64,000 nt of DNA, taken from contig NZ_BLPF01000004.1 of the NCBI RefSeq assembly GCF_011764425.1, positions 496,001 to 560,000 of the forward strand, given 5' to 3'. This stretch comes from Phytohabitans houttuyneae (GTDB taxonomy: Bacteria > Actinomycetota > Actinomycetes > Mycobacteriales > Micromonosporaceae). The translations under genes and the position numbers were made by a program. The notes under the pieces are model-generated. The model was given only the letters and a program-made list of their open reading frames with translations. It had not been told where the DNA came from and ran no database searches. Positions 2,216-52,263 of this stretch are shown in pieces. How positions within the stretch are numbered: the stretch's first letter is position 1; the number at the start of each line of letters is the position of its first letter.

Positions 2216-2911
2216 TTATCGGGCGAACAACAGGGACAACCCGCAACCGGCCGCCATGCCGCCGAGCACGATGAGCCCGATCGCGCCGGTGTCCAGACGG
2301 CTGCCGAACTGCCGGCCCACCCACAGCGCCGCCGGCGGCACCCCGGTGAAGGGCGCGATCAGAAACGTGAGCCAGCCCAGCAGGCGCAGCGGCCAGGCCA
2401 GCTCGGAGTCGAAGTGCGCGAGCGTGACGAGCCCGCCCGCGACGAGTCCGGTCATGGTGGCGGCGATGGCGCCGAGCGGGGGCAGGAGCGGGAGCAACCA
2501 GCGTGGCAGCGGCGCTCGTGGCGCGCCGCGGCGGACCGGGTCGATGCGCCTCGCCGCCGCGTCGAGCAGCGCGACCGCCTCGACCTCCACGGTGCCGGCG
2601 GCCGGTGCGTGGCCGGCGTGGTCGGGCAACGGCAGCTCGCCGACCCGCCGCAGCCGCGCCCACCAACCGCCGACCCGGCGCAGCTCGTCCCAGATCCGCG
2701 CCGCCTCGCGGTCCACGTCGACCACGGTGATGGCGGCCCCGCTGGCGGCACGTTCCGCCTCGACGAGCGCCGCGTCGCTGCGGGCCACCTCCGCCGAGGC
2801 CGCCGCGGCACCGTCCTGGTACGCGCGCTCGGCGGCGGCCAGCTTCCCGTCCCGCTCGCGCGCCGCCGCGGCGAGTGCGCCGACGAGTCGCCGGTACTCC
2901 CCGGCGCTCAC
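2216..2911 (-). CDS. Membrane-anchored coiled-coil protein of the FtsK-like module
   Basis: 231 aa from GTG at 2911, whose GTGA overlaps the stop of the ATPase gene (4-bp overlap, translational coupling). Residues 1-60 are Ala/Glu-rich and predicted coiled coil. Three hydrophobic stretches follow at about 138-165, 172-198 and 207-229. No known domain recognised. Its position as last gene of the module and its membrane segments suggest it supplies the membrane anchor that the upstream soluble FtsK-like ATPase lacks; this is inference. Confidence 0.75.
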   Translation of the reverse strand: MSAGEYRRLVGALAAAARERDGKLAAAERAYQDGAAAASAEVARSDAALVEAERAASGAAITVVDVDREAARIWDELRRVGGWWARLRRVGELPLPDHAGHAPAAGTVEVEAVALLDAAARRIDPVRRGAPRAPLPRWLLPLLPPLGAIAATMTGLVAGGLVTLAHFDSELAWPLRLLGWLTFLIAPFTGVPPAALWVGRQFGSRLDTGAIGLIVLGGMAAGCGLSLLFAR

Positions 2912-5529
2912 CGCGCCCCCCGCGCCGCACCCACTTCGTAGGGGATGATGACCTCCGGCGCGCGATGGATGGCCCGGTCGAAGAAGAGGGCCCGGTGCGG
3001 TCGGGGGTACCAGGCCGGACCACCCGGCTGGGGCGAGAGGGGCGAGAGCTCCGAGCCGTGCACGTCGAGGGCGACCCACGCGCCGATCGCGTCGAAGCGG
3101 GCGCCGACGCCACCCAGGTCGTCGCGGAGGCGGGAGACGCCGCGCCACCAGCCGAGGACGTGTACCCGCCGCTCGGGACCGCGGGACAGCACCGTGCGCA
3201 GGTGGGGGAGCTGGCCGCCGGCCGCGTCCCAGGCGTAGCCGATGACGTAGTGGGGCACCGCGGCGGGCGGACCGTCGAGGTCGGCGGCCAGCTCGGCGAG
3301 CAGCTCGGCGGCGGTGTCGAGGTCGTACCAGCGGGCGTCCGGCAGCGCCGCGTGCAGCAGCCCGGCCGCCGGGGAGGCGTCGTCGTCGAGGCACACCACG
3401 CTGAACCGCGCCGCACCGTCCATGGTGGCCAGTGAGCGGCCGGCGGCGCCCAGGACCGCGCACGCCTCCTCCACCCGCGTGCCGAGCACCGCGAGGTTGC
3501 GGCCGGGTGCGCGGGGGAGGCGGAGGACGGCAGGCCGCGGCTGTACGTCGATGGTCTCGCCGAGCACCGCGCCGTCCGCCGAGATCTCCTCCGGGTACGG
3601 GGGTACCGCGTCGCCGTCGAAGAGGCGGGGCGGGTCGAGGCCCTCGGGGCGGGCGTGCCACAGCTTCTCCTGCAGCGCACGCCACGCGCCGCGGTCGCTC
3701 GCGTCCGGCAGGCGCACGATGCGGTTGGCGTCGGGGACGCCGGAGTCGGCGTTGACGACCGCGTGGAAGCGGGGGATGACGTCGGCGGCGAGGTTGGTGT
3801 CGGCCAGGATCCGGCGCGCCTTGGGCAGCGCGATCCGCAGAGTGAACTGCGCCACCAGCGCCGACCGCCCCCACAGCGCCTCGATGCCGGAGACGTCCTG
3901 CGAGGCGAGCACCAGGTGGATGCCCTGCGAGCGGCCCCGCCGGGCCAGGTCCTCCAGCAAGCCGACCGCCTCGGTGGCCATCGCGTCGCGGCCGGCCAGC
4001 AGCACCTGAAACTCGTCGATCACCGCGACGATGCGCGGCCAGTGCCCGCTCGGGTCCTCGGCGCGCAGCTCGGCGAGCTTGGTGGCCTCGTGGCGCTTGG
4101 CGGCGTGCGCCCGGCGGCGCAGCTCCTCGCCGAGGTGCCGCAGCAGCGCGAGGCCGAACTCGCGGTCGCCGTTGACGTTGACGCCCACGAGGCGTACCTG
4201 TGGCAGCCAGCTCGGGTCCCGCCGCCCCGGCGCGAAGCGCGCGAAGGAGACGCCCTCCTTGAAATCGAGCAGGTAGAGCGCCAGCTCGTCGGGGGAGTAC
4301 CGGGCGGTCAGCGAGCCGAGCCAGGCGTAGATGAGGTTGGTCTTGCCGGAGCCGGACGGCCCGCCGATCAACGCGTGCGGCGGGTCGTCGCCGAGCAGCA
4401 CCTCGACGAGCTCGCTGTCCGGCCCGTCGCCGAGCGGGGCGGCGAGGCCGGTAGCCGAGCACTCGGTCCAGAGCTTCTCCGGCGCCAGGTCGGCGAACTG
4501 CGCTGGCGGCGGCCCGGCCAGCAGCAGCTCGGCCAGCTCCCGGCAGGCGGCGGCGACGCGGTCGGCGGCCGGTGGCGCGTCGAGTCGCACCGGGAGGTCG
4601 CCGGTGGTACCGCAGGCGGCGGTGCTCCCGTAGACGGCGACGTGCTCCACAGTGGGGTGCGCCTCGATCGGCAGCCCGCGGGCGAGCACGTGTACCCCGC
4701 ACGCCACGCCCGTCCGCACGATGCGGTCCAACTGCGCGCGCTGGGCCGCGCTGAGGTCGGCAGCCGTGGCGGCGTCGCCGAGCAGCACCACGAGCCGCCA
4801 CGGCTCGGGCCGGCGGGCGGCGGTGGCGGCGGTCAGCTCGGCCAGCGACGCGTACTCGCCGGCCAGCACGCTCTCGTTGATCCGGCGGATCTGCTCCACG
4901 AGGTCGTCGAGCATCCCGGTGAGCCCGCCCGGCCCCACGAAGGTGAGCAGGTCGGCGTTGCCCAGCGGCGCGAATCCGGCCAAGCTTCCGCCGAGCTGCT
5001 CGGGGTCGTAGACGGTGAGGCGTACCTCGCCCGGGCGCGTGCTGCCCAGCACCCGCAGTAGCAGGCCGGCGATCACGCCGTCCACAGTGGATGGCTCGCC
5101 GGTGAAGGAGAGGTGGGCAAGGTCGAGCAGGGGCACCAGCGCGGGGATCGTGGCCGCGGCCGGCTCCTGCCCGAGCGTGCCGATCCGAAACAGGCCGGGG
5201 CGCCGCCCGCGCTCGGGCTCGGTGGGGCGCCAGGTGCGCCACGACGCGCCCGCCGCACCTGGCGCGCACGACGCGGCAACGGCGGCCAGATCCTCGGTGA
5301 GCGCGCCCGCCGCCTTTTCGAAGTGGGCCCGGATGTCGCGGCGCGCCGCCTCGCGTGCCTCGGCGAGGGCGGCCAGTCGCTCGCTGTGCTGTGCGAGCGC
5401 CTCGTCCCGCTGGTGCCGCGCCTCGTCGCGGGCCGCCTCGGCGACGCCAAGGGCCGCGCGGGTCAGCCCACGCGCCGCCGCCAGGTCCCGCCGGACCCCG
5501 GCCACGATCCCGTGCCGAACGCTAGCCAC
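2908..5529 (-). CDS. Soluble FtsK/SpoIIIE-type ATPase with three RecA-like domains
   Basis: 873 aa from GTG at 5529. A coiled-coil N-terminus (about 1-90) is followed by a degenerate FtsK-like domain (about 125-300) lacking a P-loop, then the active domain with Walker A GPSGSGKT (390-397, K396) and Walker B VIDEF (D505, E506), then a third degenerate RecA-like domain (about 650-850). No membrane segments and no gamma (KOPS-reading) domain, so it is not the chromosomal FtsK. Three tandem domains with only one active recall EccC/EssC of type VII secretion. It overlaps the 298-aa gene upstream by 8 bp and the membrane protein downstream by 4 bp. Substrate (DNA or protein) cannot be told. Confidence 0.82.
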   Translation of the reverse strand: MASVRHGIVAGVRRDLAAARGLTRAALGVAEAARDEARHQRDEALAQHSERLAALAEAREAARRDIRAHFEKAAGALTEDLAAVAASCAPGAAGASWRTWRPTEPERGRRPGLFRIGTLGQEPAAATIPALVPLLDLAHLSFTGEPSTVDGVIAGLLLRVLGSTRPGEVRLTVYDPEQLGGSLAGFAPLGNADLLTFVGPGGLTGMLDDLVEQIRRINESVLAGEYASLAELTAATAARRPEPWRLVVLLGDAATAADLSAAQRAQLDRIVRTGVACGVHVLARGLPIEAHPTVEHVAVYGSTAACGTTGDLPVRLDAPPAADRVAAACRELAELLLAGPPPAQFADLAPEKLWTECSATGLAAPLGDGPDSELVEVLLGDDPPHALIGGPSGSGKTNLIYAWLGSLTARYSPDELALYLLDFKEGVSFARFAPGRRDPSWLPQVRLVGVNVNGDREFGLALLRHLGEELRRRAHAAKRHEATKLAELRAEDPSGHWPRIVAVIDEFQVLLAGRDAMATEAVGLLEDLARRGRSQGIHLVLASQDVSGIEALWGRSALVAQFTLRIALPKARRILADTNLAADVIPRFHAVVNADSGVPDANRIVRLPDASDRGAWRALQEKLWHARPEGLDPPRLFDGDAVPPYPEEISADGAVLGETIDVQPRPAVLRLPRAPGRNLAVLGTRVEEACAVLGAAGRSLATMDGAARFSVVCLDDDASPAAGLLHAALPDARWYDLDTAAELLAELAADLDGPPAAVPHYVIGYAWDAAGGQLPHLRTVLSRGPERRVHVLGWWRGVSRLRDDLGGVGARFDAIGAWVALDVHGSELSPLSPQPGGPAWYPRPHRALFFDRAIHRAPEVIIPYEVGAARGAR

Positions 5530-6418
5530 GACGTTCCTTCTCCTCGCGCTCCTTGTCCTCCCGCTCCTCGGCCTTGCGCAGTTCCTCGGTCACCTTGGCC
5601 AGCTCGTCCGGCTCCCGTCCGGTGACCCGCAGCAGGACGCCGACGAGGACGGCCGCCGTTACCGCTGCGTCGACCGGGTGCGTGCGCTCGTCCTTCTCGC
5701 GCTGCGGCGGCGGGGCGTAGCAGGCGCGGGCGAGCAGCTCGTCCACCACGATGTCGTCGAGCGCAGGCAGCAGCTTGCGGACGCGGGGGAGCAGTTCCTT
5801 CCGTACCGGCTGAAGGTCCTCTTTGGATGGTGGGTGGCCGAGCATCTCCGCGGTGAGGAAGCGCATCGGCGCCGGCGCCACCGCGGACAGCGCGAGGCCC
5901 ACGGCCGGGTCCACCGCGGTGAGTTCGCGGCGCAGCCGCCCGCGGTCGTCGTCCGGCACCGCCTTGGCGCAGCGGTGCAGCAGGTCCACGGTGGACTCCG
6001 CACCACGCTCCGGCCGGCTGCCTGACCGCTCAGTCAGCTCGTCGACCCGGTCGGCCCAGAAGTGGGTAAGGGTCGGAGGGCCGGCGTCCGCGGCTGGCCG
6101 GCGTGGCGCGGCCGGCGCCAGCGCCGCATGCCAGTCCTTGTCCGGCGGGGGTACCGCGTCGCGCGGCAGCCCGATCGACACGAGGTAGCCGGCCAGCGCC
6201 TCGCGGGCGGCGAGCATGGCGCCGGCAGCATGGTCGAGGTGCTCGCCGGCGGCGGTGAGCGTGGGTGTCGGCGCGGTCGTGACGCTCGCGCGCATCACCC
6301 AGGCCAGCAGGCCGTTGGCGGTGCGCAGGCGGTCGGCGGCGGTGGCCACCTGCCCGACCGGCAGCTCCTCGCCGACCTCCTGGATCCGGTACGCCAGCGC
6401 GTGCAGCAGTGAGCTCAT
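5522..6418 (-). CDS. Uncharacterised 298-aa protein of the FtsK-like module
   Basis: 298 aa from ATG at 6418 (MSSLLHALAYR...). Mostly predicted helix, with a hydrophobic stretch near residue 255-275 and a highly charged Glu/Arg/Lys tail. No recognised domain. It starts 4 nt after the stop of the 86-aa gene and its end overlaps the ATPase start by 8 bp, so the module is one tightly coupled operon. Role unknown; probably a structural or adaptor subunit. Confidence 0.7.
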   Translation of the reverse strand: MSSLLHALAYRIQEVGEELPVGQVATAADRLRTANGLLAWVMRASVTTAPTPTLTAAGEHLDHAAGAMLAAREALAGYLVSIGLPRDAVPPPDKDWHAALAPAAPRRPAADAGPPTLTHFWADRVDELTERSGSRPERGAESTVDLLHRCAKAVPDDDRGRLRRELTAVDPAVGLALSAVAPAPMRFLTAEMLGHPPSKEDLQPVRKELLPRVRKLLPALDDIVVDELLARACYAPPPQREKDERTHPVDAAVTAAVLVGVLLRVTGREPDELAKVTEELRKAEEREDKEREEKERRG

Positions 6419-50770: not shown

Positions 50771-50845
50771 AGGGGTGTAGCTCAGTCCGGCCAGAGCGGC
50801 GGTCTCCAAAACCGTAGGTCGCGGGTTCGAATCCTGCTGCCCCTG
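50771..50845 (+). tRNA. tRNA-Trp (CCA)
   Basis: Full cloverleaf. Anticodon loop CTCCAAA at 50804-50810, T arm GCGGG-TTCGAAT-CCTGC, acceptor AGGGGTG/TGCCCCT with two wobble pairs, discriminator G. 3' CCA is not encoded. Confidence 0.9.
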
Positions 50846-50986
50846 CTTTGCCATGCGCATTTCGCGTATCGGCGTCGAATATTGAGAACTCCACAGTGGA
50901 TGGCATGACGGAAAGGCGCCCGGCCGCGCTGTTTCTTCGGTGACGGCTGGGCAGTTTTCATTCCTATGCAGAAAGGAGGACTCCCG

Positions 50987-51424
50987 GTGGACGTCCTGGT
51001 TGTCAACGCCGACCTCGGCCCGCTCCACCGGGTCAGTCTGCGCCATGCCGTACGCATGCTCGTAAGGCGCGTCGCCGAGGTACACGAGGCACACCCCGAC
51101 CGCCTGATCGGCATCTACCCGGTGCCCACAGTCGTCCGCCTCGTCCGGTACGTGGTGACGAGGTGGCGGTACACGGCGGGCCCGGCCTGGTCCCGTGCGG
51201 GCGTCCTCGCCCGCGACGGCCGCCGCTGCGCCTATTGCGGTGGGCACGCCACCACCGTCGACCACGTCCTGCCCCGCTCCCGCGGCGGCCGGAACACCTG
51301 GCTCAACACCGTAGCGGCCTGTGATGGCTGCAACCAGCGCAAGGGCGACCGCACCCCCGCCGAAGCGGGCATGCGGTCGAGCTTCGAGCCGGCGACCCCG
51401 TCGTGGGCGTCGCTCGCGCGCTGA
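50987..51424 (+). CDS. HNH endonuclease
   Basis: 145 aa from GTG at 50987, chosen because AAAGGAGG ends 8 nt upstream. C-terminal HNH domain with zinc-type C-x2-C (RCAYCG), catalytic VDHVLPRSRGG, N and second C-x2-C (CDGCNQRKGD). N-terminal half is a helical region seen in actinobacterial HNH proteins. Free-standing, placed between tRNA-Trp and the tRNA array, a setting known for mobile homing-type endonucleases. Confidence 0.88.
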   Translation: MDVLVVNADLGPLHRVSLRHAVRMLVRRVAEVHEAHPDRLIGIYPVPTVVRLVRYVVTRWRYTAGPAWSRAGVLARDGRRCAYCGGHATTVDHVLPRSRGGRNTWLNTVAACDGCNQRKGDRTPAEAGMRSSFEPATPSWASLAR

Positions 51425-51460: not shown

Positions 51461-51535
51461 GCCCTCGTAGCCCAACTGGCAGAGGCGCCGTCCCGAGATG
51501 GCGGTCACGTGCGCGTTCGACTCGCGCCGAGGGCA
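51461..51535 (+). tRNA. tRNA-like unit 1, GAG anticodon (Leu box), short variable arm
   Basis: Acceptor GCCCTCG/CGAGGGC is perfect; T arm GCGCG-TTCGACT-CGCGC. Anticodon stem CCGTC/GGCGG, loop CCGAGAT, giving GAG with C instead of U at position 33. The variable arm is about 6 nt, whereas true tRNA-Leu is class II. Identity therefore uncertain. Confidence 0.7.
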
Positions 51536-51552
51536 CGTTCACGTCAGCCGAT

Positions 51553-51621
51553 GGGGTGGGTGCTGGTGCACAGCGTTGCCTTGCAAGCTCCGCGAGCGCG
51601 GTTCGACTCCGCGTCACTCCA
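51553..51621 (+). tRNA. tRNA-Ala-like unit 2 (TGC)
   Basis: Acceptor GGGGTGG/TCACTCC includes G3-U70, the alanine identity pair. Loop CTTGCAA gives anticodon TGC, but the anticodon stem has two mismatches and the D loop is only 5 nt. T arm CGCGG-TTCGACT-CCGCG is intact. Confidence 0.65.
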
Positions 51622-51656
51622 CTCATGGACCATCGGGTCCGTCCGTGACGGGCCCT

Positions 51657-51730
51657 GCCCGGGTAGCCCAAATGGCAGAGGCCGCCGGCTCAGAACCGGT
51701 GTGTTGCAGGTTCGACTCCTGTTCCGGGTA
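51657..51730 (+). tRNA. tRNA-like unit 3, CAG anticodon (Leu), short variable arm
   Basis: Anticodon arm GCCGG-CTCAGAA-CCGGT gives CAG. Variable loop GTGTT is 5 nt, so class I, unlike real tRNA-Leu. Acceptor GCCCGGG/TCCGGGT has G-U pairs at both ends. D arm is nearly identical to unit 1. Confidence 0.7.
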
Positions 51731-51766
51731 CGCGCGTGGCCCCTCCGCCACGTCTCGCTGCTCCAA

Positions 51767-51840
51767 CCCGTCGTGGCCCGCGTGGTAAGGGCGTCGCTCT
51801 GATAAGGCGAAGGCAGGTGGTTCGACTCCACCCGGCGGGA
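51767..51840 (+). tRNA. tRNA-Ile (GAT)
   Basis: Acceptor CCCGTCG/CGGCGGG, D stem GCCC/GGGC, anticodon arm TCGCT-CTGATAA-GGCGA, T arm GGTGG-TTCGACT-CCACC. All arms pair; anticodon GAT. Confidence 0.82.
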
Positions 51841-51843
51841 CAG

Positions 51844-51892
51844 CGCCACCTGTTCGACAAGGCCGTGTGGGGTTCGGTCCCTTCGCGGCGCA
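51844..51892 (+). other. Degenerate D-arm-less tRNA-like unit
   Basis: Acceptor GCGCCAC/GCGGCGC with one mismatch encloses only about 35 nt: an anticodon-like segment TTCGACAAGG and a weak T arm GGGG-TTCGGTC-CCTT. No D arm. In sequence and position it continues the array, so it is probably a decayed or minimal unit. Confidence 0.45.
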
Positions 51893-51893
51893 C

Positions 51894-51969
51894 TGCGAGG
51901 TGGGGAAGCTCGGCCGTTCCCGCGGGTCTCATAAGCCCGAGATCGCCGGTTCGAATCCGGCCCTCGCTC
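51894..51969 (+). tRNA. tRNA-Met-like (CAT)
   Basis: Anticodon arm CGGGT-CTCATAA-GCCCG gives CAT; T arm GCCGG-TTCGAAT-CCGGC; acceptor GCGAGG/CCTCGC with a T-T mismatch at the first pair. An elongator Met or, if modified to lysidine, Ile2. D stem GGGA/TCCC. Confidence 0.75.
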
Positions 51970-51971
51970 CC

Positions 51972-52043
51972 GTCCCAGTAGCTCAGCGGGAGAGCGCCGT
52001 CTCGACAAGGCGGATGTCGGAGGTTCGAGTCCTCCCCGGGGCA
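51972..52043 (+). tRNA. tRNA-Val-like (GAC), C33
   Basis: D arm GCTC-AGCGGGA-GAGC, anticodon stem CCGTC/GGCGG with loop TCGACAA (anticodon GAC, C at position 33), T arm GGAGG-TTCGAGT-CCTCC. Acceptor GTCCCAG/CCGGGGC has one mismatch and one wobble. Anticodon stem is the same as unit 1. Confidence 0.68.
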
Positions 52044-52071
52044 CGCGGCCCGTCACGGGCCCACGTCACCT

Positions 52072-52143
52072 GCCCTCGTAGCGCAGCGGAAGCGCGCGGC
52101 CCTCCGAAGGCCGAGGCCGCTGGTTCGAATCCAGCCGGGGGCG
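52072..52143 (+). tRNA. tRNA-Arg (CCG)
   Basis: Acceptor GCCCTCG/CGGGGGC, D arm GCGC/GCGC, anticodon arm CGGCC-CTCCGAA-GGCCG, T arm GCTGG-TTCGAAT-CCAGC, discriminator G. Well paired; anticodon CCG. Confidence 0.85.
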
Positions 52144-52182
52144 CGCGGCCGGATACCTCAGATGCCATCCACTGTGGACTGC

Positions 52183-52256
52183 CGTGAGCGCGGGCGTTGG
52201 CTGCCCGGCCGTCCCTCATAAGGACGGTGTGCCCGGATCGACACCGGGGCTCACGA
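52183..52256 (+). tRNA. tRNA with CAT anticodon (Met/Ile2-like)
   Basis: Acceptor CGTGAGC/GCTCACG is perfect, anticodon arm CGTCC-CTCATAA-GGACG gives CAT, T stem CCCGG/CCGGG with an unusual loop ATCGACA lacking T54. Lacks the initiator C1-A72 mismatch. Second CAT unit in the array. Confidence 0.7.
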
Positions 52257-52263
52257 CGCAACT

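Follow-up and report, generated by a model that had tools for sequence, protein, structure and literature searches.

An eroded HNH-tRNA array of the Micromonosporaceae in Phytohabitans houttuyneae, with ends resembling those of pre-23S rRNA

What kind of element packs eight tRNA genes into 0.8 kb of the Phytohabitans houttuyneae chromosome, when every one of their anticodons is also found elsewhere in the genome? The cluster lies in the window, the 64,000-nt stretch of contig NZ_BLPF01000004.1 analysed here, and an initial annotation had described it as nine units in 800 bp. ARAGORN found eight tRNAs in 51461-52257, demonstrating that the array is real: Leu-GAG (51461-51536), Ala-TGC (51553-51622), Leu-CAG (51657-51731), Ile-GAT (51767-51841), Met-CAT (51894-51971), Val-GAC (51972-52044), Arg-CCG (52072-52144) and Met-CAT (52183-52257), all of them, like the features described below, on the forward strand. 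The covariance model Rfam RF00005 placed five of the eight above its gathering score (Leu-CAG, 45.9 bits; Ile-GAT, 53.1; the first Met-CAT, 48.3; Val-GAC, 53.4; Arg-CCG, 66), while Leu-GAG, Ala-TGC and the last Met-CAT fell below it and were unreported. The ninth unit may be a broken one: positions 51842-51893 probably hold a half-tRNA relic with weak blastn matches to the 3' halves of relatives' tRNAs, one to a Lys-CTT unit (24 nt, 83%, E = 0.04) and one in a second relative (43 nt, 77%, E = 0.04).

The oddities reported for the individual units could mostly be reproduced. Both Leu units (75-76 nt) combine their GAG and CAG anticodons with a short variable region, the long arm being absent; C33 occurs in two loops, those of Leu-GAG (CCGAGAT) and Val-GAC (TCGACAA); and two CAT units are present in the ARAGORN output. 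The Ala unit carries G3-U70, read directly from the sequence, and by eye its anticodon stem contains two non-pairs in the 5-pair register. A unit said to lack its D-arm proved to be this same 70-nt Ala tRNA, in which the D-arm is reduced. Further 70-nt Ala-TGC units were found in L068, L071, L139 and L148. The Met-CAT unit at 51894-51971 looks initiator-like by eye: its first base pair is unpaired and it resembles the host initiator (L100). As ARAGORN draws only standard pairs and thereby selects for paired stems, we took all-standard stem pairing as no evidence.

The feature is larger than the interval 51461-52256 first assigned to it. It begins with a tRNA-Trp(CCA) at 50771-50846 (ARAGORN; Rfam, 62.4 bits), which forms the first unit of the array, and continues with an rRNA-type leader, TTGAGAACTCCACAGTGGATGGCAT, at 50882-50906, which includes the TTGAGAAC half. 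The final 17 nt of this leader (50890-50906) constitute the left arm of an inverted repeat, whose right arm at 52162-52178 is its exact complement (17/17 pairs). The repeat thus encloses the array, leaving the tRNA-Trp and the final CAT tRNA outside. Directly 3' of the leader, a G+C-rich hairpin is predicted at 50913-50954 (fold of 50907-50960, -30.6 kcal/mol); comparable complementary stretches follow the leader in other arrays, as judged by eye. An HNH endonuclease gene (152 aa; PF14279 and PF01844) occupies 50966-51424. No sigma-70-type promoter match was found for the array, and neither the ORFs inspected by eye nor the three window proteins searched in Pfam revealed phage structural genes at the locus. 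The tRNA-Trp is unlikely to mark a host attachment site, given that another tRNA-Trp (L019) exists in the genome and that Trp travels with arrays at differing places. A neighbouring DUF1349 gene, considered for marking the empty site, proved unhelpful, being present in three of the six genus genomes.

A search for the array in other genomes, as the initial annotation had proposed, returned the same units in largely the same order, a recurrence beyond chance. The genome of P. houttuyneae itself (11.3 Mb) carries 35 tRNAs in a further array on contig C1, besides 11 tRNAs on C2 and 3 on C3, and the HNH protein of the 35-tRNA array is 82% identical to that of the window. Among 23 relatives' loci fetched for a close HNH gene or its remains, 16 carried arrays of 5 to 35 tRNAs, and seven had neither array nor leader. 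HNH homologues in related arrays are 69-90% identical to the window protein. Those of array-less loci (L076, L078, L080-L083, L085) reach 74-77%; L076 contains a single tRNA some 6 kb off, and two genomes with an array-less HNH locus (G015, G022) each possess an HNH array elsewhere. Aligning the arrays by eye gave a composite order of Trp, Pro, Ala, Phe, Glu, Gly, Gln, Leu-CAA, Thr, Gly and the HNH gene, then Gln, Leu-GAG, Thr, Thr, Ala-TGC, Leu-CAG, Asp, Ser, Ile, Arg, Pro, Pro and Ser, and finally Lys, Arg, Arg, Lys, Met, Val, Glu, Asn, Ser, Ile, Val, His, Tyr, Arg-CCG, Cys and Met. The window units form a subset of this series in the same sequence. Local swaps occur (in L072 and L075 Leu-CAG precedes Ala, and L068 has two Arg units exchanged), and G004 shows a rearranged array (L086).

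Three sister species with common flanking genes at the window locus differ in what they retain: counting Trp through the final CAT unit, there are 28 tRNAs in G003, 9 in the window and 6 in G002, where the HNH match is split in two pieces. We conclude that the window locus, comprising tRNA-Trp, HNH gene and array, represents an HNH-tRNA array unit in eroded form. With nine tRNAs including Trp it stays below the 20 or more tRNA genes that define such a unit in PMC5966550, a figure which the C1 copy with 35 exceeds; a related HNH gene does lie inside it. The window copy is therefore a reduced relative of the unit and not a full one. Because the flanks of six query loci gave no match above 49% identity to another genus, the arrays have probably moved. 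Twelve leader-bearing stretches from named genomes all belonged to Micromonosporaceae. Within the family the leader is sporadic, exact copies being present in 30 of 300 genomes, spread over 14 of 44 genera (reversed-pattern control, 0).

The short-armed Leu units raised the question of which amino acid they carry. The long variable arm is usual in bacterial tRNA-Leu, and this is what speaks for the earlier suggestion that a non-Leu synthetase charges the window units and thereby recodes Leu codons. Across 27 distinct arrays, the Leu units scanned comprised 41 of class I (short arm) and 3 of class II, with class I present in 22 of the 27. The window units combine Leu anticodons with a Leu-like D-arm, a signature that a strict pattern recovered in 30 of the 41 class I units. 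In all 26 class I Leu units that could be parsed from ARAGORN output (20 loci; two more were unparsed) the D-stem has three pairs, which is also a feature of class II tRNA-Leu. A further case came from a genome (G154) of another, probably mycobacterial family of the same order. It is 100% complete by estimate, Rfam and ARAGORN each place 46 tRNAs in it, and all were examined: of its five Leu tRNAs, CAG, GAG and TAG have long arms, and its sole TAA and sole CAA isoacceptors have short ones. As the only Leu-TAA is class I, UUA must be read there by a class I tRNA-Leu, which implies that tRNAs of this type would be charged with leucine. The lone, stand-alone Leu-CAA of P. houttuyneae (C1:1009025-1009098; L104, L321) has a short variable arm as well, and only one locus in this genome exceeds the leuS cut-off, leaving a second LeuRS without a candidate above that score. 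We conclude from these sequence features that the class I Leu units of the arrays are probably leucine tRNAs, and consider recoding to be extremely improbable.

Class I tRNA-Leu is in fact a common type. Within the phylum, the strict pattern matched 74 of 396 genomes (control, 0), and among viruses at least 120 stretches. In 80 viral stretches picked by this pattern, ARAGORN called a class I Leu in all 80, and 65 were devoid of class II Leu. Class I units also occur in Synechococcus phage S-CRM01 and, among ten phages chosen as matching, in those of Mycobacterium, Enterococcus, Bacillus, Streptomyces, Escherichia, Gordonia and Microcystis. Phage tRNA sets resemble the arrays in having class I tRNA-Leu whose D-arm is the same, and Streptomyces phage Stella adds a 69-nt Ala-TGC. 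Five of six mycobacterial plasmid arrays likewise carry class I Leu, L369 being the exception; the Leu units of plasmid loci from Paenarthrobacter (L374) and Tsukamurella (L375) are class II. The literature searched yielded nothing on point for class I or short-arm tRNA-Leu as a topic; PMC6582537 notes one cluster Leu-TAG with a short variable loop.

We then considered the two ends of the array. In a predicted fold of a 1304-nt window stretch, the two arms pair with probabilities of 0.91-1.0. The repeat of the window was detected at both ends, with at most three mismatches, in 15 of 20 loci scanned, and the best complement identified a right partner in 21 of 26 distinct leader-bearing loci. 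The five without one were L140, L142 and L143, where the stretch ends early, L161, of which only 3 kb was covered, and L075, which has a leader and no right partner within the 6.6 kb searched; L073, with a variant leader, was outside the scored set, and L068 is cut at its left end. In these 21 loci, tRNA-Trp precedes the left arm 15 times, the right arm follows the preceding tRNA by 1 to 33 nt in 14 and by 45 to 1708 nt in seven, and a CAT tRNA comes next after the right arm in nine. Fourteen distinct arm pairs showed 94.5% of cells paired, compared with 25-51% for slid versions, a percentage favoured by the choice of right partners for complementarity. In L072 and L077 the total of arm pairs merely equals the control. 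The arms show compensatory changes across arrays: two-sided changes affect 4 pairs and 7 cells, values reached by 9 and 0 of 500 shuffles, respectively, and one-sided U-G changes are retained at several pairs. The number of pair types was no higher than in shuffles (227 of 500).

The left arm led to rRNA operons. In the host genome, TTGARAACTNNACAGTGG has four matches, three of them array leaders and the fourth lying elsewhere, and TTGAGAACTNNNNAGTGK occurs in 19 of 41 relatives' genomes, with several matches directly before the start of 23S rRNA (by eye). In L178, where Rfam places 16S at 550-2064, 23S at 2464-5583 and 5S at 5676, the motif stands at 2425 and its complement at 5607-5623 (15/17). 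At the putative 23S genes of L180 and L179, the complement reaches 15/17 in the former and is weak in the latter (13/17). A search for rRNA in the host's own genome returned none, so the likeness of the leader rests on the relatives' operons. Judged by its sequence, the left arm belongs to the motif that precedes 23S in those operons. The pre-23S stalk of actinobacterial rRNA operons has the same TTGAGAACTSCACAGTGGA motif on its 5' side and the complement on its 3' side, and both marks of an rRNA-type transcript, leader motif and closing helix, are present here. The rRNA stalk encloses 23S, whereas the window helix encloses tRNAs and the HNH gene and pairs over a longer stretch (17/17 versus 15/17). 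A leader-like TTGARAACTCCACAGTGGACC was also noticed outside recognised arrays, at L132 (C1:4475551 of the host genome), L162 and L173.

Arrays of tRNAs with an HNH gene are known. According to PMC5966550, PMC12803027 and PMC6582537, mycobacterial array units likewise combine redundant, structurally different tRNAs with one embedded, related HNH gene. The HNH proteins of mycobacterial plasmid arrays are 41-45% identical to that of the window. As in the window family, a leader, here TTGAGAACT..CACAGTG, is found in most of these arrays, as is class I tRNA-Leu (each in five of six); the leader occurs in L108, L110, L369, L370 and L371, not in L372, with 25 to 254 nt between it and the tRNA that follows. 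The plasmid arrays differ in their tRNA order and in being plasmid-borne, the arrays described here being chromosomal. Their right partner is also different: strong in the window array, it remains at control level in total pairs on the plasmids, with 12/15 where the final or penultimate tRNA ends in L110 and L371 (controls, 13 and 12) and no convincing partner found in L108, L369 and L370. The plasmid arrays thus provide suggestive evidence of the leader and weak evidence of the helix. The mycobacterial-type leader was found in 0 of 298 genomes of the order. Our search of the literature on boxA with tRNA arrays or clusters gave one paper with boxA, on a Stenotrophomonas phage, and no earlier description of rRNA-like ends; antitermination and RNase III are likewise absent from the accessible text of PMC6582537.

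Genes inside the arrays gave further clues. The HNH gene is under purifying selection in the pairs computed, with dN/dS of 0.12-0.41 in ten pairs and 0.12 to 0.31 in eight pairs of array loci. RtcB, which seals cut RNA, was found in two arrays only, those of G004 (PF01139, E = 1e-125) and G005 (245-residue match, 83%). A DUF7873 gene, 98% identical, lies inside three arrays (L070, L139, L148), and other arrays carry genes for LAGLIDADG, endonuclease VII, PD-(D/E)XK or Lsr2 proteins. A described counterpart is the Anabaena trn operon, a redundant tRNA set on a mobile replicon for which HNH and RtcB are among the genes listed with TrcR regulation in PMC10272220; it is cyanobacterial, unlike the window array, and is likened here by description.

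Taken together, we consider it reasonably probable that the locus is an eroded copy of a Micromonosporaceae HNH-tRNA array unit whose pre-23S-like transcript would supply replacement tRNAs. A full unit comprises tRNA-Trp, a leader of the rRNA-operon type, about 35 tRNAs with the HNH gene among them, a trailer arm pairing with the leader, and a CAT tRNA. It would be transcribed as one long RNA that the cell handles like pre-23S rRNA: the leader motif would prevent early stopping of the polymerase by Nus-type antitermination, and a cut in the end helix, of the RNase III type, would begin tRNA release. The resulting tRNAs, which duplicate host anticodons on a different body and often with a different anticodon loop, could then replace a cut or stressed host pool. 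The HNH gene would probably aid the spread or persistence of the unit. We infer the replacement role, which would matter most under tRNA cutting or a block of translation, from the redundant anticodons, the selection on HNH and the presence of RtcB in arrays, together with three reports: M. mucogenicum expresses its cluster tRNAs, at higher levels in stationary phase (PMC6582537), translation stress induces the tRNA operon of Anabaena (PMC10272220), and loop changes in phage tRNAs avoid host nucleases (PMC10264068).

Could the array instead be a horizontally acquired remnant that has no role in the host and is being deleted piecemeal? Just eight tRNAs are left in the 1.3-kb unit along with the probable half-tRNA, G002 combines its six tRNAs with a broken HNH gene, and the leader occurs in only a tenth of the family genomes scanned (30/300). 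Against this, the window HNH frame is open and its family under purifying selection, the end helix is complete at 17/17, and eight units still fold as tRNAs, a point tempered by ARAGORN selecting for folding. A dead relic is hence rather unlikely. The earlier proposal of a mobile relic is borne out insofar as the unit of which this locus is an eroded copy occurs at differing chromosomal places and has distant relatives on mycobacterial plasmids; the dN/dS values and the intact helix show that it is not plain junk. The window copy may nevertheless be past use, as leader, helix and HNH are kept but few tRNAs remain. It is improbable that the inverted repeat acts at the DNA level, for instance by bounding a mobile element or serving as a recombination site, rather than as an RNA stalk. 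Inverted repeats do flank many mobile elements, and the arrays stand at differing places. Yet the left arm is part of a motif preceding 23S rRNA, one-sided U-G changes have been kept, many arrays come with the outer Trp and CAT tRNAs, and no transposase or integrase was noticed inside arrays in the gaps of 300-2500 bases examined; transposon ends in particular are less likely.

The anticodon loops bear on the remaining alternative, that uncharged or idle tRNAs serve as decoys soaking up anticodon nucleases. Among the 353 tRNAs in the scanned loci, 35 had C33 and all others T33, a count to be read with the caveat that ARAGORN may demand a pyrimidine at this position. It includes the Val-GAC of seven of the nine array loci having this unit (L064, L065, L066, L070, L071, L061, L068), while the host Val-GAC has T33. 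These loops would suit decoys, but positions 32-33 and 37-38 are no more divergent than the stems overall (222 of 353 tRNAs parsed), and the units have kept cloverleaf and identity features beyond what a decoy would need. Decoys are therefore very unlikely, and replacement tRNAs are preferred on account of those retained features and of RtcB inside two relatives' arrays. With C33 so infrequent and loops no more divergent than stems, evasion through the anticodon loop was also rejected as a general rule. The window Leu-GAG differs from its G003 counterpart (L065) at all four non-anticodon loop positions, with little change elsewhere, which may point to selection acting on this loop.

Beyond this locus, we tentatively propose that actinobacterial tRNA arrays pass as pre-23S rRNA, so that the ribosome-making machinery would transcribe and mature a tRNA set of phage or plasmid type; the second pool may resist tRNA-cutting defences, aided in some arrays by RtcB repair. 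Once the short-variable-arm tRNA-Leu is recognised as a type common in actinobacteria and phages, a false recoding signal disappears from annotation. The leader provides a short DNA tag by which such arrays can be found in genomes, and the rRNA-like ends offer a concrete, testable mechanism by which tRNA arrays may be expressed.
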